A model generated the notes under the pieces. The model searched no databases, had not been told where the DNA came from, and saw nothing but the letters and a program-made list of their open reading frames with translations. DNA of 64,000 nucleotides from Bacillus sp. sid0103 (lineage in GTDB: Bacteria; Bacillota; Bacilli; Bacillales_B; DSM-18226): contig NZ_JAHUWN010000005.1 in the NCBI RefSeq assembly GCF_019219025.1, positions 1 to 64,000 on the forward strand. The letters run 5' to 3'. How positions within the stretch are numbered: the first letter of the stretch is position 1; the number at the start of each line of letters is the position of its first letter. A program made the position numbers and the translations under genes. This document shows, in pieces, positions 16,860 to 64,000 of this stretch.

Positions 16860-16862
16860 GAA

Positions 16863-18005: not shown

Positions 18006-18027
18006 CAGATCAATAGACCAATAGATA

Positions 18028-18065: not shown

Positions 18066-18067
18066 TG

Positions 18068-20037: not shown

Positions 20038-20098
20038 ATACTAATATGATAGTTTAAAAGGTATATATTTCGAAGGTCGTAAAAAAGGTGGATGTAAA

Positions 20099-45883: not shown

Positions 45884-46363
45884 GTGAATATCTCCATTAT
45901 TACGGTTGGCAAATTAAAAGAGAAATATTTAAAGCAAGGAATTGAGGAATATTTAAAACGACTAACTGCTTACGCGAAGGTCGATGTCATTGAAGTTGCC
46001 GATGAAAAGGCACCTGAGGAATTAAGTGAGTTAGAAATGGTGCAAGTGAAGCAAAAAGAAGGCGAACGAATTTTAGCAAAGATTAGCCAAGATACATATG
46101 TCATTGCCTTAGCTATCCAAGGAAAATTAGGATCCTCTGAAAATCTTGCAGAATCATTAGATAAACTTGCAACCTATGGAAAAAGTAAAATCGCCTTTGT
46201 GATAGGCGGATCGTTGGGTTTAAGTGAGGAAGTCATCAAAAGATCGAATGAGCAGCTGTCATTTTCGCGGATGACCTTCCCCCACCAGTTGATGAGGCTC
46301 ATCCTGGTCGAGCAGATTTATCGGGCGTTTCGGATTAATCGGAATGAACCGTACCATAAGTAA
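45884..46363 (+). CDS. rlmH: 23S rRNA (pseudouridine-1915-N3)-methyltransferase RlmH
   Basis: SPOUT-class enzyme that methylates pseudouridine 1915 in helix 69 of 23S rRNA. The 159 residues match B. subtilis YydA exactly in length. The SAM knot has [14 protein letters not shown] (about 104-117) and the C-terminus reads [11 protein letters not shown]. The family norm is RGEPYHK, so the glycine is replaced or lost here. The GTG start has AAAGGG upstream, next to a DnaA-like box. The 3' end is the integration site of SCC elements in staphylococci, and copies of it recur downstream. Confidence 0.97.
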
Positions 46364-46372
46364 ATGAGATTT
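46346..46372 (+). other. rlmH attachment site (copy A of the direct repeat)
   Basis: The last five sense codons and stop of rlmH (GAACCGTACCATAAGTAA) plus ATGAGATTT beyond the stop. This 27-base stretch matches copies at 59778-59804 and 62311-62337 at 25 positions. Because the match goes past the stop codon, it is a DNA repeat and not only protein conservation. Confidence 0.75.
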
Positions 46373-46379
46373 TTTTATT

Positions 46380-46409
46380 AAACAAAGGGCAAAAGCTCTT
46401 TGTTTTTTT
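46380..46409 (+). terminator. Terminator after rlmH
   Basis: AACAAAGGGC/GCTCTTTGTT (one mismatch) with loop AAAA and seven T. It is 8 bases right of attachment copy A, so it may belong to the island rather than to rlmH. Confidence 0.85.
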
Positions 46410-46512
46410 ATTGCTAATCTTAATTCAGCTCTATTATCACGATAGAAACTTTATTTAAAGAAATGAAGATAGTAGCTGCAAATAATTAAAGTTCATATTT
46501 TATTCAAATGTT

Positions 46513-46530
46513 ATGTGAAAATAATCACAA
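46513..46530. promoter_or_regulatory. Rex-type redox operator upstream of the lactate genes
   Basis: ATGTGAAAATAATCACAA (46513-46530): the arms TGTGAA and ATCACA fit the Rex site TTGTGAAnnnnTTCACAA with few changes. Rex senses NADH/NAD+ and represses ldh-lctP in B. subtilis. The site is about 170 bases before the lactate permease start in an otherwise AT-rich 333-base gap that also has the rlmH terminator. Confidence 0.55.
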
Positions 46531-46696
46531 ACTAGATGATATACTACCGTTGTTACCGTGAGATTATTAAAAACTAATATTTTTAGTGAAAGTAAAATTA
46601 TTGGTTTTTAATTTTATATAGTTCACAGTATGAATCAATGTTTTTTTATAATTGGTCAATAATAAAAGATGTACATCTAACAGGGGGTTGAACAGC

Positions 46697-48313
46697 ATGA
46701 ATGTATGGGAGCAAGTATATAATCCATTGAGTAACATTTGGTTGTCTGCTAGTATAGCTGCCATTCCTATATTCTTATTTATTGTAATGCTCACAGTTTT
46801 TAAATTAAAAGGGTATATGGCAGGACTCTACAGTATAATTGTTGCCGGAATTGTTGCAGTCTTTATCTATAAAATGCCTGCGATCTTAGTTTTAATGTCT
46901 GCAATATATGGAATATTAGCTGGTATATGGCCGGTGGCTTCTATTGTCTTTGCTGCTATTTTCCTTTATAAAATAACCGTAAAAACAGGCAAATTTACTA
47001 TTATCGAAAATAGTATCTCTTTTATTACAGCCGATCAAAGATTACAAGTTTTAATTGTAGCATTCTCATTTGGAGCATTTTTGGAAGGAGCTGCAGGATT
47101 TGGAGCACCTGTTGCGATAACAGCGGCCATTTTAGTAGGACTTGGATTTAGTCCTATATATGCAGCAAGTCTTTGTTTGATTGCAAACATTGCAGGTGGT
47201 GCTTATGGAGCGATGGGTATCCCAGTAACTGTTCCTTCCCTGCTTACAGGGTTAGATGGTCTTGTTGTTGGAAGATATACGGCATTTGTCCTTCCAATCT
47301 TAAGTATAGTAGTAGCATTCTTACTAATTTTTATCATTGATGGGTTGAAAGGGATTAGACAAACCTTCCCAGCAGTACTAGTCAGCGGTGTTTCATTTGC
47401 ACTTACACAGGCAATGGTTCTAACTTTCTTAGGTGCTGAACTTGCAGATATCTTTGCTGCCATTGTGAGCTTAGTGGCACTAGCATTGTTTTTGCAAGTA
47501 TGGAAACCGAAAGAAATTTTCCGCATTAATAAAGAAAAGATGGTAGATAGACAGATTAAATACCCTTTTGGAAAAATTGCTTATGCTTGGCTGCCATTTA
47601 TATTTTTAACCTTATGTGTTACTTTGTTTAACTTATCTTTTTTCAAAAATTTATTTATTCCAGGTGGTCCTTTAGAAAAGTTGGTATTATTACTGCCAAT
47701 TCCAGGATTAAATAATTTAGTCATTAAGCATGCACCAATAGTTCCGCAAGATACACCATATGCGGCAGTATTTAAATTAGATTTATTTTCATCTACTACA
47801 ACAGCAATTATCATTACAATCATTGTCGCAAGCATTCTCTTTCGCTGCAGCAGTAAGTTACTGTTGGACACTACAAAAGAAACGGCAAAAGAATTATTCT
47901 CACCAGTCCTAACAATTTGCAGTGTACTTGCTTTTGCATATATTTGTACTTACTCTGGTATGTCGTCAACACTCGGTTTAGCTTTTGCTTCAACCGGTGC
48001 GGTATTTCCGTTATTCTCACCCGTACTAGGATGGTTAGGAGTATTTTTAACAGGCAGTGTTGTAAACAGCGGTTCCTTATTTGCGCCACTTCAATCTGTC
48101 ACTGCTTCACAAATTGGCATAGCACCTGAAACAATGGTTGCTGTCAATGTAATGGGGGGGACAATGGCCAAAATGATTTCACCTCAATCTATCGCTGTTG
48201 CAGCCGCAGCAGTTGGAATAGCAGGAAAAGAAAGTGAATTATTTAAAGTGACAATTAAATATAGTTTAGGCTTACTTGTTGTAATTGGAATAATTAGTTG
48301 GTTAATATTTTAA
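46697..48313 (+). CDS. lctP: L-lactate permease (LctP/LldP family)
   Basis: A 538-residue transporter with about 13 hydrophobic segments. Family motifs are GAFLEGAAGFGAPVAITAAI (about 133-152), KLDLFSSTTTAIIIT, and near the C-terminus FAPLQSVTASQIGI and MISPQSIAVAAAAVG. It moves lactate with protons. The ATG at 46697 follows AGGGGGTTG; an earlier in-frame start at 46652 is before that site. Lactate dehydrogenase follows 30 bases later, in the opposite order to B. subtilis ldh-lctP. Confidence 0.93.
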   Translation: MNVWEQVYNPLSNIWLSASIAAIPIFLFIVMLTVFKLKGYMAGLYSIIVAGIVAVFIYKMPAILVLMSAIYGILAGIWPVASIVFAAIFLYKITVKTGKFTIIENSISFITADQRLQVLIVAFSFGAFLEGAAGFGAPVAITAAILVGLGFSPIYAASLCLIANIAGGAYGAMGIPVTVPSLLTGLDGLVVGRYTAFVLPILSIVVAFLLIFIIDGLKGIRQTFPAVLVSGVSFALTQAMVLTFLGAELADIFAAIVSLVALALFLQVWKPKEIFRINKEKMVDRQIKYPFGKIAYAWLPFIFLTLCVTLFNLSFFKNLFIPGGPLEKLVLLLPIPGLNNLVIKHAPIVPQDTPYAAVFKLDLFSSTTTAIIITIIVASILFRCSSKLLLDTTKETAKELFSPVLTICSVLAFAYICTYSGMSSTLGLAFASTGAVFPLFSPVLGWLGVFLTGSVVNSGSLFAPLQSVTASQIGIAPETMVAVNVMGGTMAKMISPQSIAVAAAAVGIAGKESELFKVTIKYSLGLLVVIGIISWLIF

Positions 48314-49291
<978 letters not shown>

Positions 49292-49365
49292 GAATTAGTA
49301 CTGGCTACTTTAATCAATTTAATATAAATACAAATGATGTTAAAAATAACCTCATATAGATTGAT

Positions 49366-49393
49366 CACGGTGAAACTTACCATAAATGGAGGC
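49366..49393 (+). other. Degenerate rlmH-like attachment site (copy D, candidate)
   Basis: CACGGTGAAACTTACCATAAA, then TGGAGGCGG. In frame this reads H-G-E-T-Y-H-K, close to the GEPYHK end of RlmH. The tail CATAAATGGAGGCGG resembles the end of staphylococcal SCC attachment sites (CATAAATGATGCGG, from memory). It divides the lactate genes from the rest of the island. The 273-base ldh-FAH gap also contains the terminator at 49447. Confidence 0.4.
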
Positions 49394-49446
49394 GGTGTAT
49401 TAAGGAAACACTTTTTAATTATTACTAGTTTTTTAAATTTGAAAAT

Positions 49447-49478
49447 AAAAAACGCACTGATTATTAGTGCGTTTTTTA
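49447..49478. terminator. Bidirectional terminator between ldh and the FAH-family gene
   Basis: AAAAACGCACT/AGTGCGTTTTT with loop GATTATT, A-run before and T-run after, between convergent genes. It can serve both strands. Confidence 0.88.
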
Positions 49479-49564
49479 CGGTTTTGGTGTGCTATTTATA
49501 ATTTTGTACTCCAAAACTATACGAATTATCGTTAAGAGTGCCCTGCTTCTTTTCAAAGGATCTG

Positions 49565-50368
49565 CTATAGTACATAATTACTCAGCTTGCCGATCTTTTC
49601 TACTTCCACAGATACGATGTCACCAGACTTCATTGGACAACTTCCAGCAGGTGAACCAGTAGCCAAAATATCACCCGGCTCCAATGTCATAATTTGTGAA
49701 ACCCAGCTGATAAGGAAAGGGATCGACAACGACATCTGGTTAGTATTGCCATCCTGTACGACTTCTCCATTTAAAGTAGTAACGATTCGTAAATTAGTTG
49801 GATCAATACCTGTCACGATACACGGACCCAACGGCCCAAAAGTGTCAAATCCTTTGCCGCGGGTAAATTGGGGATCTTTTTTTGTAAGATCTCTTGCCGT
49901 TACATCGTTAAATATTGTACAGCCAAATACATAATCAAACGCTTCTTCTTCTTTTATATTCTTGCCTCTTTTCCCAATAACGAGTGCTACTTCCCCTTCT
50001 AGCTCGACCTGCTGGGTTAAATGATTTGGCGGAAGAGTAATTTCACCACGATCTGGAATCAAGGAAGTGGTAGGCTTTAAAAATAGAAAGGGTTCTTTGA
50101 GGTTGGCTGTTCCACCCGTTTCTTTTGCGTGTCCGGCATAGGTCCAGCCGAAATTAATTATTTTTGAGGGTATTACAGGCTCTACTATTTTCACATCATC
50201 ATATTTAACTCGTACTCCATCAAATTTTAGTTCATTGTTTACAATTTCAGTAAAATTACTGGTCAATTGTAAAATTTCGTTATCCTCAACGATCCCGTAA
50301 TATATTTCACCGTTACGATTCTGATAACGAACTATCGTTTGTGTTCGCTTCAGCAATTGTAATCCCAT
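49565..50368 (-). CDS. Fumarylacetoacetate hydrolase family protein
   Basis: A 267-residue FAH-fold enzyme. The C-terminal catalytic domain shows INFGWTYAGHAKE, VELEGEVALVIGKRGKNI with metal-binding acids (about 121-138), FNDVTARDL and the end LEPGDILATGSPAG. Members include 2-hydroxyhepta-2,4-diene-1,7-dioate isomerases, oxaloacetate decarboxylases and acylpyruvases; the exact substrate cannot be told. A short N-terminal domain precedes it. The ATG at 50368 has GGAGTG upstream. No pathway partners are adjacent. Confidence 0.88.
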   Translation of the reverse strand: MGLQLLKRTQTIVRYQNRNGEIYYGIVEDNEILQLTSNFTEIVNNELKFDGVRVKYDDVKIVEPVIPSKIINFGWTYAGHAKETGGTANLKEPFLFLKPTTSLIPDRGEITLPPNHLTQQVELEGEVALVIGKRGKNIKEEEAFDYVFGCTIFNDVTARDLTKKDPQFTRGKGFDTFGPLGPCIVTGIDPTNLRIVTTLNGEVVQDGNTNQMSLSIPFLISWVSQIMTLEPGDILATGSPAGSCPMKSGDIVSVEVEKIGKLSNYVL

Positions 50369-50407
50369 TTATGATCACTCCATCGAAATAATTGTTGTTC
50401 TTTCAGT

Positions 50408-50542
50408 CTAGATGTTTATCGTTACTAATGAGGAACTTGGTTCAAGGTAAACCATCTCATTCAGAATCTTATAACCTTGTCTATTCTTAAAAGCATCTTT
50501 AGCTTCATTTTCCATGTCTAATTCATACATTAGGGAATTCAT
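50408..50542 (-). pseudogene. Short relative of the 52-residue protein at 50767, probably truncated
   Basis: A 44-residue ORF containing MYELDMENEAKDAFKN and then RQGYKILNEMVYLEP. It lines up with MFEFETEEEAREALKY and MNGCKILSEVVYFND of the neighbouring ORF, but lacks the MWIITRY start. No good ribosome-binding site precedes its first ATG. It is best read as a decayed duplicate. Confidence 0.5.
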
Positions 50543-50621
50543 TCAGAAAAATTTCAGTCCCGGGGTATCAGCTGATCTTCTGCAGTAACCATTATGTATG
50601 ATCTTCTCTCCAAGCAGGCAT

Positions 50622-50650
50622 AGCAGGAACTAGATGATAGTTCCTGCTTT
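50622..50650. repeat. Perfect inverted repeat (hairpin) between the two small ORFs
   Basis: AGCAGGAACTA/TAGTTCCTGCT, 11 pairs with a five-base loop, then TTTAT on the plus strand. It looks like a terminator for plus-strand transcription, yet no plus-strand gene ends here. On the minus strand it lacks a T-run. Confidence 0.6.
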
Positions 50651-50766
50651 TATCGTTCATAGAGAGTGTCATTTGATTTCTCTTTGCTTAATTATGTTCT
50701 CTAGAAAATTAGTTAATTGGCAACCTGGGATTTCAACCTTCTAACCTTCATTAGAATGCAAATATC

Positions 50767-50925
50767 TTAAGCTGCTTCCTGCTGATAACAAGGATCATTG
50801 AAGTATACAACTTCAGAAAGAATTTTACAGCCATTCATGTATTTGAGAGCCTCTCTTGCTTCTTCTTCAGTTTCAAATTCAAACATGGAAATATTTGAAT
50901 CTAAGTAACGAGTGATAATCCACAT
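50767..50925 (-). CDS. Small uncharacterised protein (52 residues)
   Basis: Encodes MWIITRYLDSNISMFEFETE, then EEAREALKYMNGCKILSEVV, then YFNDPCYQQEAA. AGGAGGAATTTTT precedes the ATG with good spacing, so it is very likely translated. A beta-strand, acidic helix and KILSEVVYF strand give a compact fold with no membrane segment. I recognise similar short Bacillus hypothetical proteins but no function. A shorter relative lies 225 bases downstream. Confidence 0.72.
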   Translation of the reverse strand: MWIITRYLDSNISMFEFETEEEAREALKYMNGCKILSEVVYFNDPCYQQEAA

Positions 50926-51243
50926 AAAAATTCCTCCTATTTTAAAATCATTTCTGTCCTACAGACAGACTTCTATAATTTGGCTAAAGATAACTTAAGC
51001 TATGTTTAACCTCAAGGATGATTTAGCATGATGAAATCCGCACTCTAGGATTTAACGAAGTAACTATTTATTTCTTCATACCAATGATAATGCAAGAATG
51101 GAAATAAATAAAATGCTATAAAGTTATAGTAACAAATAAAAAAAATTTATATGGTAAATTTTAGGGGAATAAAGTGGATTGCCGTGATTGGGAAATACTG
51201 CAGGTATAATCGTTTATGCGAGCCGTATCACTTGTTAAAGAAA

Positions 51244-51275
51244 ACAAAAAAGGAATGGAGAAAACCATTCCCTTC
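51244..51275 (-). terminator. Terminator of the DUF4822 lipoprotein gene
   Basis: On the minus strand, GGAATGG/CCATTCC with loop TTTTCT is followed by TTTTTTG. The 384-base gap to the left (50926-51309) has little else except a possible rlmH-end relic near 51200-51235. Confidence 0.88.
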
Positions 51276-51309
51276 TTGACTACATGCTAAGTCCTGCTTG
51301 AAGTATTTA

Positions 51310-52269
51310 TTACTTAGAGAATTTAAGTTTAATATCACCATCATAAGGTATATGCTCAACCGTTATGGTTATGTCTTTACCATCCTTATCTTTACCTTTT
51401 CTTTTATAGGTGAATTTATTTTCATTAAGCTCTGTTAGTTCAAGAACGGCACCATACTTCATCCCTAGGGAAACATGGGCTCTTATCTTATTTCCATGTA
51501 CGACATCGAAATAGCCGTAATCACCGCGGCTTTCACCAGTCTTAGCATCAAAAAATTCATATTTATTTGTCTTATCATCATATTTGGCAAGACCTAAATA
51601 ATTAGAATTATAACTGGATACATCGTTGCCATTTTCATCTAATGCCACGGTTCCTTGCCATAGGGTGCCTGCTAAAATTTTATCCCCATCAATGTTTGTC
51701 ACAACTTCTCCTGTGGTTGTTTCCAACTTTTTGTCCGGATCAGTAAAGGAAAGTTCTGTTTCTTTATAAGGAATATGATCAACAAATACCTCTACATCGT
51801 TACCATTAGCATCTTTACCCATTCTTTTATAGGTAAACATATCTTTATTTAGCTCTGTTATTTTGACAACAGCTTGGTAACCCATCGATTCTGATATTAA
51901 TACTCTAACCTTCCCATCGTTGGTGATAAAGAAAGTTCCTTTATCGCCACGACTTTCTTTGGTGGTTTTATCAAAAAATTCATATCTCGATGTTTCATCG
52001 TCATATTTCGCGAGACCAATAAAGTTTGCATTATATTTTGTTAAGTCATTATTATCTTTATCATATACTTTTGTTCCTTGCCAGTTTGTATTGCTTAGTA
52101 TACTAGCCAATTCCTGCCCTTTGGTTACCTTATTATCTTTTTTACTGTCTTTAGCTTTTTGTTCTTGCTTCTGTTCACTTTGATTGGCTTGTGCAATGGT
52201 GTTACAACCTGTTAGTAATAATGTGAACCCGAGTAGTATTGATGATAATGTTTTTACTTTTTTGTTCAT
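51310..52269 (-). CDS. Lipoprotein with two DUF4822 domains
   Basis: 319 residues: a lipoprotein signal with lipobox LLTGC (C22), a charged K/Q-rich linker, then two similar halves of about 125 residues. Each half has the order WQGT, FIGLAKYDDET or YLGLAKYDDKT, YEFFD, ESRGDKGTF or ESRGDYGYF, LTEL/ITEL, FTYKR-GKD and VDHIPY/VEHIPY. The halves match at most of these positions, which indicates an internal duplication. It would be anchored outside the membrane; function unknown. Confidence 0.87.
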   Translation of the reverse strand: MNKKVKTLSSILLGFTLLLTGCNTIAQANQSEQKQEQKAKDSKKDNKVTKGQELASILSNTNWQGTKVYDKDNNDLTKYNANFIGLAKYDDETSRYEFFDKTTKESRGDKGTFFITNDGKVRVLISESMGYQAVVKITELNKDMFTYKRMGKDANGNDVEVFVDHIPYKETELSFTDPDKKLETTTGEVVTNIDGDKILAGTLWQGTVALDENGNDVSSYNSNYLGLAKYDDKTNKYEFFDAKTGESRGDYGYFDVVHGNKIRAHVSLGMKYGAVLELTELNENKFTYKRKGKDKDGKDITITVEHIPYDGDIKLKFSK

Positions 52270-52374
52270 TTTGTAGTCTCCTTATTTCATTATTGTAGTG
52301 TAATTTATAGTAGTATCTACGATTTATAGTAGAAATACGGTTTGTTTTTACTTATTGAAGTTTATTCGATCTTG

Positions 52375-52704
52375 TTATTTCGCTCGTGCTTTTAACAAAA
52401 TTTGTTCAATCTCTTTAAATCCTCTCTTGCGTGCGTGTTGTAAAGGTGTCACATTCTTATTATCAGGAATGTTGACATCTGCCCCATGATTTATTAGTAA
52501 TTGCACTGTTTGCTGCTGTTTTTTGTCACCATTACCCAAAATAACCGCTTCTAGTAAAGCTGTCCAACCTAGATCATTTACATGATTAATATCAATATCT
52601 GTACTGGTAAGAAGTTCTTTAATAACATCCACATACCCATGTTCAGAAGCTGGGATTAAAGCCGTTCCTCCGTACCGGTTAGTTACAGATGGGTCGGCAC
52701 CTGC
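52375..52704 (-). pseudogene. Ankyrin-repeat lipoprotein, C-terminal half (split by inversion)
   Basis: On the minus strand, codons from GADPSVTNRYGGTALIPASE to ILLKARAK form about three ankyrin repeats (EHGYVDVIKELL, LGWTALLEAV, INHGADVNIPDNKNVTPLQH). It starts in the middle of a repeat, without signal peptide or start signal. The plus-strand fragment next door ends in the middle of the matching repeat (ILKLTIEA), and joining the two restores a continuous ankyrin lipoprotein. Confidence 0.72.
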
Positions 52705-52714
52705 TGAACTTGTG

Positions 52715-53119
52715 ATGTGGAGGTGGCTGACAGTATTCATTGGATGTATTTTCATTCTTCAGGGATGTGCCTCTGAAAACGCTGGAGATCCGAATAAACA
52801 GCAAAATGAGAGAAAAGGAGAGATAGATGTGAATCAACAACTATTTCAAGCTGTAGAACACAAAGAAACGGACACCATAAGAAGATTAATTGAGGAAGGT
52901 ATTGATATTAATTCACAGGACTCACAAGGGCGAACTGCCACGATGATTGCGACTTATAACAATGATGTAGAGATTGCAAAAATCCTAATTGACGCGGGGG
53001 CAGATGTCAACATCCAGGACAACATGGAAAATAGCCCCTTCCTGTATGCTGGTGCAGAAGGATATTTAGATATTCTTAAACTTACGATTGAAGCCAGCCA
53101 ATCGTTAATTGTTACTTAA
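52715..53119 (+). pseudogene. Ankyrin-repeat lipoprotein, N-terminal half (inverted fragment)
   Basis: Encodes a lipoprotein signal MWRWLTVFIGCIFILQGC (lipobox LQGC), a linker, and two ankyrin repeats (AVEHKETDTIRRLIEEGIDI, NDVEIAKILIDAGADV). Real homology ends at LKLTIEA near 53095; the last eight residues are off-frame filler. The start has no ribosome-binding site, because the inversion breakpoint (about 52705) cut it from its original upstream region. Two hybrid ORFs may still be expressed at low level. Confidence 0.72.
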
Positions 53120-53202
53120 ATTATGTTAATACTTAATCTTAAACTCCCTCTAAATAATTTCTTAAAAAAAAATAAACTTTTTAATAAAATTTCTTTATAT
53201 CC

Positions 53203-53231
53203 ATAAAAAATACCGCCACCTTTGTGACGGT
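53203..53231 (-). terminator. Terminator of the two-component operon
   Basis: On the minus strand, ACCGTCAC/GTGGCGGT (one G-T pair) with loop AAAG is followed by ATTTTTTAT, just after the response-regulator stop. Confidence 0.85.
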
Positions 53232-53252
53232 TACTAAAACAGATTATTTAAT

Positions 53253-53939: not shown

Positions 53940-55387
53940 AATACATTTCCTTTCTTCTTTAAGGAAAAGAAGATACTTGTACCTTTTCCTATCTTGCTTT
54001 TAGCCCACATTTCCCCTCCATGCTCTTGAATGATATGTTTTGTGATTGCAAGTCCTAAGCCACTTCCGCCTGTCTGAGAATTTCTAGATTGTTCTGCCCG
54101 GTAAAAACGATCAAAAATGTAAGGTAAAGCAGCCGGCTCTATCCCTTGTCCATTATCTTTTACTTGAACAGTTACATCATAAATTCCTTCATATAGAGAA
54201 ATGGTAATGTTCTTTTGGTCCTTATTCATATATTTTACACAATTGCTAATTAGGTTGGCCATTACGCGTTTTAATTTCTCCCTATCTGCTAGTACACTTA
54301 TCGGTTTGTCCATAAGATGAAGGTCAATTTGGATCCCTTGTTGGAGTAAATCAAGATGAAGGTCTTCTACGTAGTCGCTCATATATTTATCCAGTTCGAC
54401 GGTTTCAAAAGTAAAGGGCTCTTTTTTTAAATCCAGCTTGGAAAATAAGAACAGTTCATCTATCAATGAATCCATATATCTTGCTTTTTGGTACACAGTT
54501 GATAAGTACTTGTCCATCTTCTGTGGAGTATTAGCTACACCGTCTTTTATCCCCTCAACATATCCAATAATTGAAGTAATAGGAGTCTTCAAATCATGCG
54601 AAATATTGGACAATAGTTCTTTTCGATTTTCCTCATACTGAATCTGGAGATTCACGGATTCTTTTAACTTTATTCTCATATCCTCAAACGCTTTATTTAA
54701 TTGTCCGATTTCATCATTCGAAGAAGCTTTGATTTCAAAATTTAGATCTCCTGATTTTATTCTCTCAGCACCTTCTCTAAGAATTGAAATAGGCTTGATG
54801 ATGCTTCGTGAAACTAGATAGTTCAAAAGTCCAATAATTATTATAAATAGAACTAGCAATAGACCGAATAAAATTGGAAACAACTCCCGAGTCAATTCAG
54901 CAAAGGAGCTTGCCTTTCTCAATACAAAAATACTTCCTTTACTTTTATCTGGAAAATAGAAGTCAAACTTCACATAAGTGAAAAAATAATCTTCAATTTT
55001 AATCGTATCTCGTGTATTAATGTTCGTTTCTTCAAACCCGGGAAGGGACTTAATCAATGTTTGCTTATTAAGAGTGGGAGAAGCGTACTCAATGTTTCTA
55101 TTCTTTCTTACGACAATCTTAATATCTTGCCGTTCAATCTTTTTTAGTTCCTCTTGGTTAAGAAGTTGCTTAGGATTATGTTTAGCCAACAGCTTTAAGT
55201 CTAGAAACGCACTTTCCTCTACGGGTGTTAATGGTTTTTGAACATAAGATTTTTTGTAAAAATACTCGATAGAATTTACATCACCAGTTATCGCAAAAAT
55301 AAGTAAGAAACCAGCTGCTAAAAATAAAATGATAGAAATAAGGATTACCCCAACGTAGGACAACAGAAACCTCATTTTAATTGACAT
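53936..55387 (-). CDS. Sensor histidine kinase
   Basis: 483 residues. Two membrane helices (about 8-32 and 165-190) enclose an outside domain of about 130 residues. HAMP, then HisKA with ISHDLKTPITSIIGY (H about 265) and HATPase with GSGLGLAITKHII follow. The ATG at 55387 is chosen because TGGAG lies 8 bases upstream; an in-frame GTG three codons earlier overlaps it. It precedes and overlaps the response-regulator gene. The 352-base gap upstream is AT-rich and holds the subtilase terminator. Confidence 0.92.
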   Translation of the reverse strand: MSIKMRFLLSYVGVILISIILFLAAGFLLIFAITGDVNSIEYFYKKSYVQKPLTPVEESAFLDLKLLAKHNPKQLLNQEELKKIERQDIKIVVRKNRNIEYASPTLNKQTLIKSLPGFEETNINTRDTIKIEDYFFTYVKFDFYFPDKSKGSIFVLRKASSFAELTRELFPILFGLLLVLFIIIIGLLNYLVSRSIIKPISILREGAERIKSGDLNFEIKASSNDEIGQLNKAFEDMRIKLKESVNLQIQYEENRKELLSNISHDLKTPITSIIGYVEGIKDGVANTPQKMDKYLSTVYQKARYMDSLIDELFLFSKLDLKKEPFTFETVELDKYMSDYVEDLHLDLLQQGIQIDLHLMDKPISVLADREKLKRVMANLISNCVKYMNKDQKNITISLYEGIYDVTVQVKDNGQGIEPAALPYIFDRFYRAEQSRNSQTGGSGLGLAITKHIIQEHGGEMWAKSKIGKGTSIFFSLKKKGNVL

Positions 55388-55675
55388 TATATTCACTCCA
55401 GTGTCTATCTCTTGCTCATTCTTTAATGAAAGTTCACCATTTTCGGCTTATTCTTGAATGGGAGATACTGTTTGCAAATGTACCATATCACATAATCCTT
55501 AAAACTTTCTAAAATATATATGAAATGTTCATAAACATCTAACAATAAACGGCTTAAATAGTAATAGCGTAGAATAAGGAAGATTTGTTGTTATCTAGTT
55601 AGGAATATATAAATGAGCTTATTTTTAAATTTACCAAGAACATAAATTCTTATAAAAGAAAACTGCTTCTACATA

Positions 55676-55721
55676 GAAAAAGCTATCAATTCCTAAAATA
55701 AATAGGAACGATAGCTTTTTC
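55676..55721 (-). terminator. Terminator of the subtilase gene
   Basis: AAAAAGCTATC and TTCCT pair with AGGAA and GATAGCTTTTT across a ten-base loop, with one internal mismatch. The A- and T-runs make it usable on either strand. Confidence 0.9.
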
Positions 55722-55739
55722 TTAAATCAAATGAAGGTT

Positions 55740-58700
55740 TTATGGTTGTTGGCGAACCGTTAATTGTTGAGGTTCTGTTGTCGCTTTAAGGCCGCTTTTT
55801 GTAACTAGATCAGCCGACATGTAATACGTCCCATCTGGAAGATCAGATTTAGGTGCCCATTGGGTTCGAAGTGTGTGTTCATTTTTCACTTCAAAAGAAT
55901 CGACTATCTTACCATTTCCATCTTTAATATTAATTGTCCAGTCTATTCTGTTTGAAGCGTAACTAATAATTTGTGCTGGATTATTTTTGTTAACATTTTC
56001 CGTCGGACTTACATAGAAAAAAGAAATGATCATGTCTTGATTAACATAGCTTGGATCTCCCCAAACTGCGTACGATTGATTATAGGCATAGTCGGCCGCT
56101 AAGACGACAACACTTTTTGGTTCATTATTTACAATTAAAGAAGTTTCCCCTGGAGCTATATCCTTATATTGTCCATCAACCCAAAGGACAGCTCCTAAAA
56201 AGTCACTTCCATTTTCATTATCCTTTGCCTTAAAGGAAATTTCATATTTTCCATCCTTTGGCGTTACTTGGATATCAGAAATCATTGGAGCAGTAGAGTC
56301 GACTTTAATGGGCATTTTCACTATCTGTGGTTTTGCATTTGTATAATCTAATGTCGTTTTAATCACATATTGATAAACACCATCCGGTACAAATTCTCCT
56401 GACTTATCTTTCATATCCCATAGATATCCGCCAATTCCAAAATCACCATATGCCATAATATTTTTTCCGAATTTCCATGATTTTCCTGTATACTCGCTAA
56501 AGTCACCTAAATATTGAATGATATTTCCTGATGGATCTTCGACATACATTTCGGTTTTTTGTAAATTACGTAAAGCTGTAAAGGTTGAATAGACACCATT
56601 AGCAAAGAAGTTTGGCGAGAAAGCAATATGATTAGGATTAAATCTTCCCGTAGCTGGGTCATATCCCATTGGATAACTTTCTGATATATCATCCCAAAGA
56701 GCGGTATAGCCTAAAAATGCATCTTTCTCCCATGCTGCAGGGTCAATATTTTGTGGCTCATCCCATTTTCCATAGAAGCCCATATAAGGAATGGATAAAG
56801 GTACGGCTTTATCTTGATCCTTTGCTACTGGAACTAGACGGACAAACCCTTCTACAAAACTATTTTTCTTTAATGAATCTGGTAAAGATACATTAACTGT
56901 TAGCATTTTTGTTTGACCAGGTTTTATTTTAATAGAGGCTCCGTCTGTTTGTGTTACTTTTTTATCATTCACAGTGACGCTTGCACCATTAATACGTTCA
57001 CTTGTTAAGGTTAGATACTCTTTGGAGTCTAAAGTACCATCATTGTCTAAATCAAATTCTTTCATTTCAGTCTTATCTTTTAGCACATCAACATAAACCT
57101 GGTATTCAATATCATCTTTATTACCTTTAGGAGCATCAAATGCTTCAACATTTAATTTAAAACTTGTTTTTTGACCCATTTCTTTTAGAGCAACGAATCC
57201 CGCTTGTTTTAAAGGTGTATCTTTGCTTGTGATAATGACTGGTGTATGAATGGCATTTTGAATTTGCATTAATCCAGATCCTTGTACTCTTGGTGAATAC
57301 GGTACAGCACCATTTGTTCGTGGATCCATAACAACCTTTGCAGTATTCATTAATGCTAGTTTTGCTTTTAAAACCGTACTTTCTGAATGTGGCAATCCTT
57401 TTTCATAAAGTGCCTGCAATAACAATGCTGAACCGCCTGCAACATGAGGCGTTGCCATGGATGTTCCGCTCATTACTTCATAGTCATTTCCTGGTACAGT
57501 GGAATAGATATTTCCACCAGGAGCAGAAATCTCTGGCTTAAAATCTAACGTATGCGGGGATCCAATGGATGAAAAATCGGACATCGAGTCTTTCTTTGTG
57601 TTTTCTAGCCAAGTACCGCCTGATAATTTCATCTGAACCGCTTGACCACTTGTCAGTTTATTGATCAATTCTTGACCAGCCGCTTTGCCGGTTGTAGCGG
57701 CGGGAATGGAATAAGAACTTAAGCCTAAGTATGGGTAGTCAGCCATATTATCTGGTGGAATAATAATAACGGCTATAGCTTCTCCATAACGTTCTGCATC
57801 AAATTGAAAATTAGAATAGAAAGAATATTGATCCTGTAGTTTTACCACAGCAATCTTACCTTTTACTTTTGGTTGACCACTTTGATCTAAATAATCAGCT
57901 TTTTTAAGTCCGTTACCTACATATACCAGGTCATAACTTTGATTTGGTGATAAAGATTTAGATAGTTTAAAGTTATATTGCGTTTGATCTTGGTAAGGAA
58001 GCTGATACCCATTTGCATCAACTAGAGTATTAAAATGAATTTTTGAATTTTCATATGAAGCAACAGATATAGCATATGGACTTACAGATGGTGAACCTAC
58101 TACTCCAATATCGGGATTTTCTGCATATGGTTTTAAAGAAGAGAACAATAGATTATTTTTTGTACTGTATGATGCATTACCCGCTGCTGCGACAACAAGG
58201 GTGCCATTTTCTGTTGCCACCCGAACGGCTTTTTGAATAGGATCGTCTTCTTCACTTACAAAGCCTGCATCAACACCTAAACTCATGTTGATAACATCTG
58301 CACCCATTATAATGGCATGTTCGATTCCTGCGATAATATCATCCTCATAAGCTCCGCCGCCATTATCTGAAAATACCTTCTCAGCTAGCAATTGAACGCC
58401 TGGTGCAATTCCTTCTACACCACCTTTTGTTTCATCGCCGCTTGCGCCAACTGTACCAGCAACGTGCGTACCATGAGAACTTCCATCTGGACCAGGAATG
58501 ACATTTGTATCGTTGTCTGCCCAATCATAACCAGTTGGTACTTTATCGCTATACCAAACTTCGTTTACATCTGTCTCTTGAAATTTAGTATTGATGCTTG
58601 CTTGAGTCCATTTCTCTTTTTCTTTTGCTTTATCAGGTAGTTTCATATCTTTGTGCATATAATCAATACCGGAATCAACTACCGCTACTAGTAAGCCTTC

Positions 58701-59285
58701 ACCTTTATAACCATATTGGTTCCATACTTTTTGGGCTTGTACTAGTTCCTTACTTGCTCCCATAGTTGGCTGGAATGTGTTTGCAATATGTACATTCGTA
58801 ACTCCTGGAATGGACTGGATATCTTTAATATTCTGAAACTCTGTTTGTAAACTAAATCCATTAAACCCTTCAAAAAAACGATGTTTCACTTTTGTAGGAG
58901 ATTTTGATTTAGATTTATTTTTCTTTGAGATTTCATCAATTACTTTGTCTTGCTTTTGCCTATATAAAGTTTTTTTATTTTTGGAGTTTTTATCAACTTC
59001 TGTTGGTTGTTCGACTTCTACGATTAAACGAACCATATCATTTGGGTTATATGGTTTAGCCAGACCTTCCTTTTTAATGTCTTTAGAATACAAATCATCT
59101 TTACTGGTTTCTTCTATATCTTTATTAAAAAATAAAGGCCTTCCTTGCTCCACCATTTTTCCACCCGTTTGAGATGGGGGTGATGTATCATTGCTTTCTG
59201 CAAAAACAGTAAATGATGAAAAAATTAATGAGGTTAAAGCGGCAGTGGACATTACCTTAAATACCTTATTTTTACTTTTATTCAT
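55740..59285 (-). CDS. Large secreted subtilisin-like (S8) serine protease
   Basis: 1181 residues, exported by a Sec signal ending near VFAES (30). An inhibitor-I9-like propeptide precedes the S8 catalytic domain with D in VVDSGID (about 203), H in HGTHVAG (about 272) and S in GTSMATPHVAG (about 607). A PA domain is inserted (about 425-560). Then come fibronectin-like domains, an EF-hand-like loop DLDNDGTLDSKEY (about 742-754, possible Ca2+ site) and further beta domains. There is no LPXTG anchor, so it is probably released. The layout resembles the lactocepin/C5a-peptidase and Vpr group. AAGGGG precedes the ATG. Confidence 0.93.
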   Translation of the reverse strand: MNKSKNKVFKVMSTAALTSLIFSSFTVFAESNDTSPPSQTGGKMVEQGRPLFFNKDIEETSKDDLYSKDIKKEGLAKPYNPNDMVRLIVEVEQPTEVDKNSKNKKTLYRQKQDKVIDEISKKNKSKSKSPTKVKHRFFEGFNGFSLQTEFQNIKDIQSIPGVTNVHIANTFQPTMGASKELVQAQKVWNQYGYKGEGLLVAVVDSGIDYMHKDMKLPDKAKEKEKWTQASINTKFQETDVNEVWYSDKVPTGYDWADNDTNVIPGPDGSSHGTHVAGTVGASGDETKGGVEGIAPGVQLLAEKVFSDNGGGAYEDDIIAGIEHAIIMGADVINMSLGVDAGFVSEEDDPIQKAVRVATENGTLVVAAAGNASYSTKNNLLFSSLKPYAENPDIGVVGSPSVSPYAISVASYENSKIHFNTLVDANGYQLPYQDQTQYNFKLSKSLSPNQSYDLVYVGNGLKKADYLDQSGQPKVKGKIAVVKLQDQYSFYSNFQFDAERYGEAIAVIIIPPDNMADYPYLGLSSYSIPAATTGKAAGQELINKLTSGQAVQMKLSGGTWLENTKKDSMSDFSSIGSPHTLDFKPEISAPGGNIYSTVPGNDYEVMSGTSMATPHVAGGSALLLQALYEKGLPHSESTVLKAKLALMNTAKVVMDPRTNGAVPYSPRVQGSGLMQIQNAIHTPVIITSKDTPLKQAGFVALKEMGQKTSFKLNVEAFDAPKGNKDDIEYQVYVDVLKDKTEMKEFDLDNDGTLDSKEYLTLTSERINGASVTVNDKKVTQTDGASIKIKPGQTKMLTVNVSLPDSLKKNSFVEGFVRLVPVAKDQDKAVPLSIPYMGFYGKWDEPQNIDPAAWEKDAFLGYTALWDDISESYPMGYDPATGRFNPNHIAFSPNFFANGVYSTFTALRNLQKTEMYVEDPSGNIIQYLGDFSEYTGKSWKFGKNIMAYGDFGIGGYLWDMKDKSGEFVPDGVYQYVIKTTLDYTNAKPQIVKMPIKVDSTAPMISDIQVTPKDGKYEISFKAKDNENGSDFLGAVLWVDGQYKDIAPGETSLIVNNEPKSVVVLAADYAYNQSYAVWGDPSYVNQDMIISFFYVSPTENVNKNNPAQIISYASNRIDWTINIKDGNGKIVDSFEVKNEHTLRTQWAPKSDLPDGTYYMSADLVTKSGLKATTEPQQLTVRQQP

Positions 59286-59768
59286 AAGCGTAGCCCCTTT
59301 TTTATATATTTAAATATAAAACTTGTGATCCTAGAATCTATAAGTTTTATATTTCTTTACTAAAATGATTAAGAGATTAGTGGTTTATAATTTTGGTTTA
59401 AATATAAACTGTTAGGTAGGATAATTGTCATTGATGTTAGTGGGTATTAGGGATGGAAGTCACAAATTCTATAAAATAGTGAGCTAATTTATGACTAATT
59501 CAAATAATAAAGCGGCTTAATAATAATGTAAATTGGGGGAATATTGAAGGAAGCGTTCGTTCAAATGACTTAATTTTTATTAAATAAAATGTCGTAAAAG
59601 CTAGATTAAAGTAGAACTATCACTTATTTGTTCGAAGGGTATTGTCGAAGATATTATTTTTAGAATTGAATGTAACAGTAAACTGGGGGAAAATAGTAAA
59701 AATGCATTCCATTTTTATGACTTTAGTAAAAAATAGAAAATATTACAGTTTTATTTCTGCCCAATTAT

Positions 59769-59807
59769 CGTAACGGTGAACCGTATCATAAGTAAATGAG
59801 GTTTATT
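59769..59807 (+). other. rlmH-end direct repeat (copy B), probable island junction
   Basis: CGTAACGGTGAACCGTATCATAAGTAAATGAGGTTTATT (39 bases, given here as CGTAACGGTGAACC then GTATCATAAGTAA then ATGAGGTTTATT) spells R-N-G-E-P-Y-H-K-stop, the consensus RlmH end, with no rlmH gene before it. It differs from copy C at two positions. It lies in the 614-base gap between the subtilase and benE-like genes; the rest of that gap (59286-59768) is AT-rich, with nothing else recognised. Confidence 0.78.
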
Positions 59808-59821
59808 CTATACAAAGAAAT

Positions 59822-59860
59822 AAATGACACCTAGACTGCACTATGTCTAGGTGTCATTTA
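59822..59860. terminator. Strong hairpin terminator of the benE-like gene
   Basis: A perfect 15-pair stem AAATGACACCTAGAC/GTCTAGGTGTCATTT with an 8-base loop, A/T-rich on both sides, starts 14 bases right of repeat copy B. Confidence 0.9.
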
Positions 59861-59899
59861 TTTTGTCATGAGATGTATCCAAGGCCTAAAGAAACGGTG

Positions 59900-61165
59900 T
59901 TAGGAAATTTTGTCCTTGCAAAGAGCTTCACTCAAGTTAGTTTCATTGTTTTGGTCACTTGATTCGGATTTATAAAAATCTTGTTTATCCAAGAATGCGG
60001 TGGCTAAGGTACCCCCAACCAGACCCCAGAATGGCGCTCCAATATGGAGAATAGAGATCCCAGAGATTGTGATTATAAAGGAAAAGAGGGCGCCTGATTT
60101 GAATGGACCAGAGAAACTCATTTTCAAAGAGTCAACCAGTACACTAATCATGGCGACGCCACCTAGTAATTGAATTAATGAGGCAGGAATGACATATGGA
60201 ATTTGCGAAGCTATTGGAGAGAATAGAGCTAATAGACAGGATAATACTCCTAATACAATAGCAGCGACATACCTATGTTCAAGTTTGCCTGATTCTTTAT
60301 TAACAAGTAAGCCCGTCATGGGACCTGCAATACAGGCTGGGTGGCCCCCAAAAAAAGCATTTATAATGGTACCGATTCCGCTCCAATTGGTCATGGCATT
60401 GATCGGTGGACGATAGCCATGGGTCTCTAACATAGCAATCCCTTGGGCATTTTGAATGGCAATAACCGTTAAGAGTAATGGAATGACAAGTTCCCCTACA
60501 ACGGAAAAACTAAATGATGGAATGATAAAATGGGGAATGCCCATTGTTATATGGAGAGGCTGTACAGAAACGTTCGGCAAAAATTTAAGACAAAGAATTG
60601 CTGCAATGATCGCCCCTAATATAGGCGGAAACTTTTTTGAAAATCGTAAGAAAAAAGAAAGAGCAAGAAAGACAAGTAAAGGGATTCCGTTGAGTAAAGG
60701 ATTTTTTACAACCGAGCCGATCATTTCAGTTCCGAAAGGGAGTAAGACGCCTGACACCATCCCCATCATAACTGGCATAGGCAAAACCTTCATCAATTTT
60801 GTAACAAGGCCAGATAATCCTAAAAGAAAAATAAGGATCCCGGTTATAATATAGGCACCAACCACTTGGTTGAAAGAATAATGGGTTAAGCTTGAGCCGA
60901 CAAGAATGGCTCCAGGTATTGAAAAGGCATAGCCTATGGGTTGCCCATAATATAAGGAGACGATGAGCGTTAGGAGTCCACCCATTCCATAAATGGCGAA
61001 AATCCATGAGCTGGTTATGCTACCAGACAAATGACCTTTTGCAGCAGCTTGTAAAACAATTAATAATGGTCCTGCTGAACCAAAAAGCCAGGCCACAAAT
61101 CCATTCGATATATTCCCAACCGATAAAAGCTTTGGAAATTGTATGGTATTTTTTTTGAACAACAA
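59900..61165 (-). CDS. BenE-family permease (benzoate/H+ symporter-like)
   Basis: About 421 residues with 11-12 membrane segments. LYYGQPIGYAFSIPGAILVG and, later, GHPACIAGPMTGLL are typical of the BenE family. BenE carries benzoate in Acinetobacter; the substrate here is not known and no aromatic-degradation genes are adjacent. TTG 61165 is preferred as start because AAGGAG lies 7 bases upstream; the in-frame GTG at 61171 is only one base from that site. It is divergent from a LysR regulator. Confidence 0.85.
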   Translation of the reverse strand: MLFKKNTIQFPKLLSVGNISNGFVAWLFGSAGPLLIVLQAAAKGHLSGSITSSWIFAIYGMGGLLTLIVSLYYGQPIGYAFSIPGAILVGSSLTHYSFNQVVGAYIITGILIFLLGLSGLVTKLMKVLPMPVMMGMVSGVLLPFGTEMIGSVVKNPLLNGIPLLVFLALSFFLRFSKKFPPILGAIIAAILCLKFLPNVSVQPLHITMGIPHFIIPSFSFSVVGELVIPLLLTVIAIQNAQGIAMLETHGYRPPINAMTNWSGIGTIINAFFGGHPACIAGPMTGLLVNKESGKLEHRYVAAIVLGVLSCLLALFSPIASQIPYVIPASLIQLLGGVAMISVLVDSLKMSFSGPFKSGALFSFIITISGISILHIGAPFWGLVGGTLATAFLDKQDFYKSESSDQNNETNLSEALCKDKIS

Positions 61166-61190
61166 AGTCACTCTCCTTCAACTTATGAAT

Positions 61191-61209
61191 TACACTACAT
61201 CTTAGTGTA
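61191..61209. promoter_or_regulatory. Candidate LysR operator in the divergent intergenic region
   Basis: TACACT, seven bases, AGTGTA is a near-palindrome in the 119-base space between the divergent permease and regulator genes, where LysR-type proteins bind. The identity of the site is inferred from position and symmetry only. Confidence 0.45.
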
Positions 61210-61284
61210 TACTTAATTTATCAATACTTAAAATATCTGTTTTATCTTTTTACTATATCTTTTGGGTATGATGGAGGTTTCATC

Positions 61285-62154
61285 TTGGATATTCGACAGT
61301 TAAAATACTTTGTCACTATAGCAGAAGAAGGTAAGATCACGACAGCTGCAAAGAAATTAAATATTGCTCAACCTCCTTTGAGCAGACAACTCAAACAAAT
61401 GGAAGAAGAGCTAGGCGTCATTTTATTTGATCGAGATAACAAAAGTCTTAATTTAACCTTGGAGGGGGAAAGATTACTTCTTCGAGCAAAAGAACTTTTA
61501 AATAAACTTGATGAAACAATGGTAGAAGTTCAAGAATTGAGGAAAGACGCCAGTGGGATTTTATCTGTTGGATCCAATCTTTATTGTGCATCTTTAATTC
61601 TTTCTAAGGTGGTAGATATTCGTGAGAAAAATCCTGGTCTTACTTTCAAAGTATGGGAAGGTGAAACGATTCATCTCATAAAAATGTTATCTAAACGTCA
61701 GATTGAGATTGCGATAACAAATAGTCCAATAACAGAAAAAAGTATCTCTCAAATGACATTGGAAGGTGACCCATATGTGCTTGTTTTGCCTGAAAAATGG
61801 ACGTGGAGTGGATCAGAACAATGCAGGTTAGAGGAAATCATCGATTTGCCATTGATTCTTCTGCGACCAAACTATGGTTTAGGTGCGTATGGACAAATTG
61901 TCAATGAATTTCAACGGTTAGATTTAGAACCAAATATACTGTGCGAATGTCAGGATTTAATTATGTTACTTGGTCTCGTTTCATCGGGGTTTGGTGCAAC
62001 GATCTTACCGCTCTCGTTATTATCCCTCCATTCATTGGGAGGATTGAGAGTCATTCAGCTAAAGGATCAGACCTTAATATCTGAACCCAAAGTAATTTGG
62101 AGGAAGAATAGTTATTTATCAAAAGCAGCAAAAGAATTTTTAAAACTTTTTTAG
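61285..62154 (+). CDS. LysR-family transcriptional regulator
   Basis: 289 residues. The N-terminal helix-turn-helix has MDIRQLKYFVTIAEEGKITT and AAKKLNIAQPPLSRQLKQME (about 1-40), followed by the linker helix and a periplasmic-binding-like effector domain that ends with ATILPLSLL. TTG start (61285) with TGGAGG upstream. It probably controls the divergent BenE-like permease gene. The 398-base gap that follows contains repeat copy C and otherwise nothing recognised. Confidence 0.92.
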   Translation: MDIRQLKYFVTIAEEGKITTAAKKLNIAQPPLSRQLKQMEEELGVILFDRDNKSLNLTLEGERLLLRAKELLNKLDETMVEVQELRKDASGILSVGSNLYCASLILSKVVDIREKNPGLTFKVWEGETIHLIKMLSKRQIEIAITNSPITEKSISQMTLEGDPYVLVLPEKWTWSGSEQCRLEEIIDLPLILLRPNYGLGAYGQIVNEFQRLDLEPNILCECQDLIMLLGLVSSGFGATILPLSLLSLHSLGGLRVIQLKDQTLISEPKVIWRKNSYLSKAAKEFLKLF

Positions 62155-62301
62155 ACACCAAAATTATTTACTCAAAAGTAAAAGACTTCAACGTTGAAAA
62201 ATGGCAAATAAAATGAAACAGGTATTAGTTTTGACTGTGGTAAAGTAGATCTTTAAATGAAAAATAAAATATATTCATGGTTTTATAACCTCATTTAGAT
62301 T

Positions 62302-62340
62302 CGTTACGGAGAACCGTATCATAAGTAAATGAGGTTTATT
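62302..62340 (+). other. rlmH-end direct repeat (copy C), probable island junction
   Basis: CGTTACGGAGAACCG then TATCATAAGTAA then ATGAGGTTTATT spells R-Y-G-E-P-Y-H-K-stop. It matches copy B at 37 of 39 bases and copy A at 25 of 27 over the shared core. Copies B and C flank exactly the permease-regulator pair. Confidence 0.78.
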
Positions 62341-62552
62341 AAAACTATTTCTATTCAATATCGATAGAGTGGACTGTAGGAGTTGCTGAGGGAGCAAAAC
62401 CTATGGCCACTCTTATTTAGTTTATTTAAAGTACTTTTACATTTCTTTAAACTTATTTACCTAATTCCTACATAAATTCCATTAATGCTTAATGTTTGCC
62501 ATTTAAACTATCAATAGATAGAAAAACATAAATGAGGAGGAATATTTACTTT

Positions 62553-63995: not shown

Positions 63996-64000
63996 TTTTA

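Follow-up and report, generated by a model that had tools for sequence, protein, structure and literature searches.

A probable array of non-autonomous SCC-type gene cassettes at the 3' end of rlmH in a Bacillus genome

The window analysed here, a stretch of 64,000 nucleotides from Bacillus sp. sid0103, contains the rlmH gene (45884-46363, plus strand), which encodes the 23S rRNA pseudouridine-1915 N3-methyltransferase (NF000985, 264.6 bits for a cut-off of 172; PF02590) and is followed by four units separated by copies of one site. Unit 1 (46346-49371, 3.0 kb) carries on the plus strand the genes for an L-lactate permease of the LctP family (46697-48313; PF02652, 7.7e-176), whose start was placed at an ATG inside the longer listed ORF (46652-48313), and for an L-lactate dehydrogenase (48338-49291; TIGR01771 and NF000824 over cut-off). 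Unit 2 (49372-59777) is a 10.4-kb mosaic encoding, all on the minus strand, a fumarylacetoacetate-hydrolase family enzyme (49565-50368; PF01557, 1.1e-60), a predicted lipoprotein with two DUF4822 domains (51310-52269; PF16103, 4.4e-103, in two stretches), a response regulator (53253-53939; PF00072, PF00486), a sensor histidine kinase (53936-55396; PF02518, PF00512, PF00672), and a large subtilase of 1181 aa (55740-59285; PF00082, 1.7e-52, and PF06280). It also holds a broken ankyrin-repeat gene (52375-53119), split by a 394-bp inversion at 52701-53094 into halves of opposite direction (52375-52755, minus; 52712-53119, plus). A phase-variable switch was considered for this inversion and rejected, as no long inverted repeats were seen at its borders. 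Unit 3 (59778-62310, 2.53 kb) encodes a BenE-family benzoate/H+ symporter (59900-61171, minus; PF03594, 6.1e-71) and a LysR-family regulator (61285-62154, plus; PF00126, PF03466); the symporter scores just below cut-off for TIGR00843 (202.7 versus 203.4), and the name BenE is also used in the annotation of a plasmid copy described below. Unit 4 begins at the site 62287-62337 and continues past the window end (62311-64000), with the gene for a PhoX-family alkaline phosphatase with a TAT signal (62532-63995, plus; PF05787, 3e-84, and PF10518).

The initial annotation had described a 27-base repeat at 46346-46372, 59778-59804 and 62311-62337, and these copies were confirmed: allowing up to three mismatches, the 27-mer occurs at these three positions only in the window, versus no copy in 100 dinucleotide shuffles. 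Two of the 27 bases set the rlmH copy apart from the two others; both downstream copies do read G-E-P-Y-H-K-stop, as had been claimed, while the tail of rlmH itself reads N-E-P-Y-H-K-stop. A fourth, degenerate copy at 49372 had been overlooked, however (49346-49403 matches 62285-62342 at 76%), as had the fact that the repeat is one half of a dyad site of about 51 bp. The full site is laid out as element arm-ACGGT-GA-ACCGTAYCATAAG-element arm, with the dyad arms around GA, and element-end arms, AACCTCAT.., start at 49348 and 62287. Such a dyad with a central GA fits the layout typical of attachment sites for large serine recombinases (LSRs); since there are four site copies, including that at 49372, four units are delimited, the last being open at the window edge.

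The site next to rlmH (attL-like; 46346-46372, plus) consists of the rlmH arm, the central GA at 46346-46347 and the element right arm TAAATGAGATTT; in addition to matching the 27-mer, it has a right-half score of 44.7, while no right half reached 5 in ten shuffles. The junction between units 1 and 2 (49348-49398, plus; GA at 49372-49373) has a well conserved left arm, i.e., the end of unit 1, and a degenerate right arm, with scores of 32.4 for the left half and 36.5 for the full site, on a matrix (maximum 89.0) derived from 41 sites that include 62287 but not 49348; ten Markov shuffles of the window gave no full site scoring 0 or more. At the junction between units 2 and 3 (59754-59804, plus; GA at 59778-59779), the right arm is perfect (right half 48.3) and the left arm divergent (full site 18.3). 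The junction between units 3 and 4 (62287-62337, plus; GA at 62311-62312) is a complete 51-bp dyad att site scoring 86.6 of the maximum of 89.0, being itself one of the 41 sites behind the matrix. The region thereby displays several features of SCC elements, namely insertion at the 3' end of rlmH, flanking direct repeats with the rlmH end and, for units 1 and 3 in the window, terminal inverted repeats. As judged from sequence, the last codons of rlmH are the integration site.

A survey of 60 rlmH regions identified 141 site cores on the rlmH strand and none on the opposite strand, and one Markov shuffle of each region gave no core. At least one downstream site was present in 43 of the 58 regions of at least 4 kb, at least two in 28, and none in 15. 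Half of the surveyed site-bounded segments measure 2.1-5.8 kb, and their cargo often looks metabolic or transport-related. As the sites are dyads present at many loci, they could also be dispersed palindromic repeats, such as REP-like elements or transcription terminators, whose likeness to the rlmH end is due to chance or convergence. This is hardly credible given the single direction of all 141 cores, the existence of whole cassettes between sites that are common to several genomes, and the matching of arms within units: among 93 units, the likeness between the two ends of one unit is 8.55, versus 7.74 (sd 0.13) when permuted, with a best value of 8.20 in 2000 permutations, and that between the two arms of one junction is 7.66.

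Several relatives also have arrays away from rlmH. The initial annotation had counted a scattering of the repeat over the genome against insertion at rlmH; copies elsewhere do exist in relatives, yet they border further units and several of their left flanks are rlmH-like. Specifically, seven secondary left flanks hand-picked from half-site listings were ranked by their likeness to rlmH ends among 16,341 22-mers that precede GA: five are in the top 0.04%, and two are unlike rlmH. The same genes in all relatives would likewise have spoken against insertion, but the two nearest hosts, G186 and G194, carry different DNA immediately behind rlmH.

Complete copies of the benE-lysR unit, with ends at the site cores, are present in 3 of 193 genomes of the family (G040, G056 and G101; 97.9-98.6% identity), as well as on plasmid pA of Peribacillus sp. 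R9-11 (98.8% identity), where the copy is flanked by site arms that belong to other units. The unit comes first after rlmH in G056, about 21 kb from rlmH in G040, and at a distant locus in G101. Over htrA-rlmH, host identity to the window is 71% for G056 and 76% for G101, and that of G040 is 79% over 738 nt around rlmH, among the matches listed. Counterparts of unit 1 in G044, G172 and G043 show 90.0-94.5% identity over at least 80% of both lengths, and that of G044 is the second unit of its rlmH array; by these alignments, the lctP-ldh unit also changes position between genomes. A plasmid search with unit 1 returned related genes only, none covering 80% of the query. The phoX gene has a copy at 1255380 in G132, with a full site immediately to its left (1255067), and another (91%) about 21 kb from rlmH in G194. 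Further cassettes occupy differing array positions between genomes. In G185, G184 and G189, which are closely related to one another, the same cassette either adjoins rlmH or stands behind a unit of 1.4 kb or 4.7 kb, and the sequence switch falls at the core, which amounts to an insertion polymorphism beside rlmH. The presence of near-identical cassettes at other positions in distant bacteria and on a plasmid suggests an integron-like shuffling of genes on SCC-type sites.

Spread mainly by homologous recombination, through natural transformation and plasmids, with sites that merely mark old insertions, would account for the wide distribution of similar genes and for the plasmid copies, and would be in line with the lack of a detectable LSR (E <= 1e-8) in 15 of the 68 genomes with at least five site matches. 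We consider it very unlikely as the main route, because, in hosts showing 21-29% divergence from the window at rlmH, the similarity breaks off at the site cores, and because the rlmH arm is mimicked by five of the seven secondary left flanks. Homologous recombination could nonetheless be behind the movement of some cassettes. Plasmids are the best lead for the route between cells. A plasmid search with the delta and epsilon cassettes of G189 gave a single 75% match, which covers 35% of the query; all else was short fragments. No site was found in a phage search or, with a degenerate pattern, in viral contigs, so that there is no sign of phage carriage at the sensitivity of these searches.

An HMM search of the window ORFs from 80 aa upwards detected no LSR (E <= 1e-3), in agreement with the earlier statement that the window lacks a ccr gene; the ccr gene complex, which is one of the defining features of SCC elements, was not found in it. 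Using an HMM that recovers the LSRs of five control loci, three of which contributed to building it, LSR pieces were found in 5 of 94 site-bounded segments, and in 4 of the 60 rlmH regions an LSR lies beyond the last recognised site. Across 151 genomes, the mean number of site matches is 5.2 in the 116 with a detectable LSR and 5.7 in the 35 without (P = 0.76). Complete elements with the same ends do exist at rlmH, of 12.9 kb (L205), 15.6 kb (L204) and 20.0 kb (L206/L207), each encoding one LSR of 561-573 aa. The LSRs of L205, L204 and L211 have CcrB as best NCBIfam match, with 409-423 bits, far under the curated cut-off of 900, and reach 331-367 bits for CcrC (cut-off 900); they may hence be called CcrB/CcrC-like. 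L205 encodes a D5/DUF5906 helicase-type protein in addition to its LSR. The LSR pair of G019 (L131/L132) was rejected as a candidate recombinase for these sites, since the only site close to it is a single degenerate one and no pair of sites encloses it.

The initial annotation had proposed a candidate composite SCC-like island. In such a scenario, a ccr-bearing element at rlmH would have lost ccr and the repeats would be internal relics, i.e., a pseudo-SCC; LSR-bearing elements with the same ends are indeed known at rlmH, and recombinase-less pseudo-SCC exist in staphylococci, according to the relevant part of PMC10581047. Unit 2 would also fit as a decayed mosaic: its blocks (49566-50531, 50731-51205, 51231-55564 and 55675-59780) match different genomes separately, no recognised site was found in regions L190-L192 and L203, which hold three of them, and the match of the subtilase block to G173 stops at 59733, short of the core. 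This explanation is nevertheless unlikely, since units 1 and 3 occur apart from each other elsewhere, at full length and ending at cores, unit 3 being first after rlmH in one genome and between arms of other units on the plasmid, and since LSR pieces are so rare in segments. Neither the window, where no ccr was found, nor the site numbers, alike in genomes with and without LSR, speak for one composite SCC. What stands of the earlier proposal is tandem insertion of the serine-recombinase type at the 3' end of rlmH, now backed by same-cassette comparisons and by insertion polymorphism; separate recombinase-less cassettes fit better than one island.

We therefore favour, with a probability of roughly 0.8, an array of non-autonomous SCC-type gene cassettes that are mobilised in trans and have accumulated one behind another at rlmH. 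Counterpoints to it are the failure to find an LSR in the window, the low CcrB scores, the 15 regions with no downstream site and the four with an LSR past the last one recognised, the mosaic character of unit 2 with its degenerate left site, divergent right arm and blocks that elsewhere lack a recognised site or end short of the core, and a copy of unit 1 in G001 (91%, window 46361-49374) with no recognised site at either end. Each unit of the array would be bordered by the two halves of an LSR attachment site of about 51 bp. A CcrB/CcrC-type LSR would act in trans, coming from an autonomous SCC-like element that was present at some other time or in a different cell. This LSR would join the site of a circular cassette to the rlmH-end copy or to a pseudo-site, exchanging strands at the central GA. 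Because this GA is part of the Glu codon in the RlmH tail E-P-Y-H-K, an arriving cassette would bring its own last codons, which would leave rlmH intact and a usable site in place, and hence allow stacking in one orientation. A central GA is also required by Ccr, which can use non-canonical sites, as stated in the section concerned of PMC10581047.

At a broader level, towards which we lean, Bacillaceae would have an analogue of the integron that works with serine recombinases. Small, recombinase-free operon cassettes, probably numbering in the hundreds, would share the 51-bp SCC-type site, circulate among distant hosts and plasmids, and be placed in trans by CcrB/C-like recombinases into rlmH or rlmH-like pseudo-sites; the resulting arrays would be ordered and exchangeable, with many metabolic and transport genes. 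SCC elements have mostly been studied as carriers of drug resistance in staphylococci, and how they collect their cargo is not well understood. If small SCC-ended cassettes circulate in Bacillaceae, they would offer a plausible model for the way in which cassette chromosomes gain and reorder genes, and would represent a gene-cassette system of independent design, the second besides the integron. SCC-like islands are already known, but arrays of small cassettes that lack a recombinase appear to be a novel variety, none at rlmH in Bacillaceae being reported in the titles and abstract starts of the open-licence literature searched.

In integrons, small non-autonomous cassettes are lined up facing the same way, and their recombinase is separate. 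The cassettes described here are likewise small, non-autonomous and in one orientation, with a recombinase apparently supplied separately, but they use a different site and adjoin rlmH, and often have several genes, some with regulators. No IntI was seen, the 13 window ORFs scanned including no integrase. With SCC/SCCmec, the array shares insertion at the rlmH 3' end, direct repeats of the rlmH tail, the central GA and the occurrence of recombinase-less forms (sections concerned of PMC10581047), as well as terminal inverted repeats and tandem composites (sections concerned of PMC10061031). It differs by the surveyed segments, half of which are 2.1-5.8 kb long and 5 of 94 of which hold an LSR piece, by a cargo that is often of metabolic or transport appearance, and by the location of arrays away from rlmH or on plasmids in several genomes. 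The rlmH-inserted LSR islands of Bacillota (PolA-SSB/COG3378-helicase elements) have the same insertion site, an LSR, a helicase and, for some, tandem composites; L205 looks like a member, although no Pol-SSB pair was identified in it. The islands described there bear recombinases, and the sections concerned of PMC10061031 do not describe small recombinase-less cassettes. Lastly, the Enterococcus cassette chromosome, as presented in the relevant parts of PMC6222049, resembles the array by its att sites of about 50 bp with a dyad and a TATCATAA core, and by the presence of several attR sites per element in half of the cases (16 of 32), but it consists of 21-78-kb elements defined by ccrAB.

The 27-base repeat that the initial annotation had placed at the end of rlmH (46346-46372) and again at 59778-59804 and 62311-62337 was recovered at these three positions in a window search allowing up to three mismatches, which returned no further copy; 100 shuffles of the window gave no match at all. 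A fourth, degenerate copy lies at 49372. The repeats thus border an lctP-ldh cassette (unit 1, 46346-49371), a 10.4-kb mosaic (unit 2, 49372-59777), a benE-lysR cassette (unit 3, 59778-62310) and a phoX unit starting at 62311. Gene calls for the window include rlmH, lctP, ldh, an FAH enzyme, a DUF4822 lipoprotein, two ankyrin ORFs, a two-component system, an 1181-aa subtilase, benE, lysR and phoX. Among the best 80 rlmH loci kept, the nearest is that of Neobacillus cucumis (92% protein identity).

A simple pattern detects at least one extra rlmH-tail copy downstream in 21 of the 80 fetched rlmH loci, and 13 of the 27 downstream copies in these 21 loci are preceded by an arm resembling AACCTCATTTAGAT. 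Alignment of those 13 sites with two sites of the window yielded a ~51-bp consensus, AACCTCATTTAGATnnnTYACGGT-GA-ACCGTAYCATAAGTAAATGAGGTTT, whose arms are inverted copies of each other around GA; the same core is also seen with other arm types. A sequence-only model built from 13 of the 15 aligned sites matches 146 of 151 family genomes (E <= 0.01), with 797 matches in total and up to 27 per genome, many of them the rlmH half-site only. Full sites of the window score 86.6 at 62287 (itself one of the 41 sites in the scoring matrix), 36.5 at 49348 and 18.3 at 59754, and the rlmH half-site scores 44.7; no full site scoring at least 0 appeared in 10 window shuffles.

We surveyed up to 20 kb past rlmH in 60 hosts, i.e., the 61 listed hosts nearest to the window at htrA-rlmH minus G142, where rlmH is at the contig end. 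All 141 site cores lie on the rlmH strand and none on the opposite strand, and Markov-shuffled regions (one shuffle per region, 1.10 Mb) contained no core. A downstream site occurs in 43 of the 58 regions that are 4 kb or longer; 28 regions contain two or more such sites, and the remaining 15 contain none. With rlmH taken as the first border of every array, this gives 94 segments (median 3.7 kb), including 51 internal ones (median 2.8 kb). Across 93 units, the two ends of a unit match each other better than in any of 2000 permutations.

Few segments carry a large serine recombinase (LSR): an LSR ORF or piece is found in 5 of the 94, with a full-size gene in one (L235), a gene in pieces in two (L237, L242) and a small piece in two (L242, L266). 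In four regions (L262, L269, L273, L279), an LSR lies past the last recognised site. Genomes with and without an LSR have similar counts of site matches (means 5.2 and 5.7, P 0.76), and 15 of the 68 genomes with at least five matches lack an LSR at E <= 1e-8. Three complete rlmH elements with the same ends (12.9, 15.6 and 20.0 kb) each encode one LSR of 561-573 aa; the L205 element also encodes a short resolvase-domain ORF and D5/DUF5906, RadC-domain, N6-methylase-type and PLD nuclease-like proteins. The LSRs of L204, L205 and L211 are relatives of CcrB and CcrC, not CcrB or CcrC proper: their best NCBIfam match, CcrB, reaches 409-423 bits versus a cut-off of 900; CcrC comes second (331-367 bits). 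Separately, in L004, L013, L025, L064, L068 and L074 the same rlmH core is occupied by a different element family with the arm AATAGAGGCAAAAA, whose LSR reading frame is on the opposite strand and runs into the rlmH end; in L013 and L025, a second LSR adjoins the first. L010, L034 and L075 have such an opposite-strand LSR at the rlmH end with other arms.

The same cassette is found at different places. End-to-end copies of unit 3 are present in 3 of 193 genomes, directly adjoining rlmH in G056, ~21 kb along from it in G040, and at 4.64 Mb in G101, far from rlmH at 71 kb. Host identity to the window over htrA-rlmH is 71% for G056 and 76% for G101, and 79% over the 738 nt listed for G040. The unit 3 alignments end at site cores, the widest spanning window 59773-62337. 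Plasmid pA of Peribacillus sp. R9-11 carries unit 3 at 98.8%, the arms on either side being those of adjacent units. Copies of unit 1 are present in G044 (as second unit of the array), G172 and G043, and a separate 2.2-2.5-kb cassette is found at differing positions in G044, G005, G130, G172 and G117. The list of genome pairs sharing cassettes includes some close relatives, and the two members of its 100% pair, G193 and L011, are a single genome counted twice.

Insertion polymorphism is seen among G185, G184 and G189, which share a site-bounded cassette, named delta. It directly follows rlmH in G185, and is separated from it by a 1.4-kb unit in G184 and a 4.7-kb unit in G189, the sequence switch falling at the core; G185 and G189 are 96.6% identical across 2284 nt upstream of rlmH. 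Arrays remote from rlmH are found in several genomes, e.g., G146, G132, G121 and G019. When 16,341 GA-preceding 22-mers are ranked by resemblance to rlmH arms, five of seven hand-picked secondary left flanks fall within the top 0.04%; the other two, at 17.6 and 26%, do not resemble these arms. Site-bordered units also occur on two further plasmids, one from Heyndrickxia oleronia and one from Peribacillus asahii. At 16258-20290 on a 24-kb plasmid of the former (L285), two half-sites enclose a 4.0-kb unit that carries three spore-germination genes. Macrococcus/Macrococcoides plasmids NZ_CP080015.1, NZ_CP079957.1 and NZ_CP079966.1 show a weak att-site match (84%, E 8e-3). In G095, a fragment of a second rlmH (C-terminal 45 profile positions) at C1:4319239-4319373 lies between two array site matches and looks as if it were an rlmH piece carried by an element.

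Unit 2 does not form a clean cassette: the four blocks in it match different genomes separately, the site on its left is degenerate, and the site on its right has a left arm unlike the others. The subtilase block ends at 59780, at the core, when compared with G117, and at 59733 with G173. An ankyrin-repeat lipoprotein gene is broken into two oppositely oriented ORFs by a 394-bp inversion at 52701-53094; the inverted segment has the opposite orientation in G197 and several others (e.g., G198, G127, G117, G173), and no long inverted repeats were seen at its ends. The ~470-bp stretch at 50731-51205 has no listed ORF of at least 60 aa and is 80-91% conserved in G019, G197 and G194, where it is separated from the sequences that adjoin it in the window; it is possibly a small cassette, an RNA or a small gene.

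For cargo, the scan covered 105 of the 200 ORFs that are 150 aa or longer in 0.3-7-kb segments, a selection made to remove near-duplicates. The commonest Pfam families in it are amino acid permeases, ABC transporters, short-chain dehydrogenases, histidine kinases and FtsX permeases (4 or 5 each), followed by thiolases and AMP-binding enzymes (3). Each defence model matches at most 5 of the 105, in part via general domains.

LSR islands inserted at rlmH and their composites have already been described in Bacillota (PMC10061031). ECC in enterococci are likewise published (PMC6222049), and work on staphylococci covers pseudo-SCC, the central GA and non-canonical sites (PMC10581047). Searches of open-licence literature by title and abstract opening yielded no report of arrays of small recombinase-less cassettes in Bacillaceae, and these arrays therefore look like a novel form of a known kind of element.
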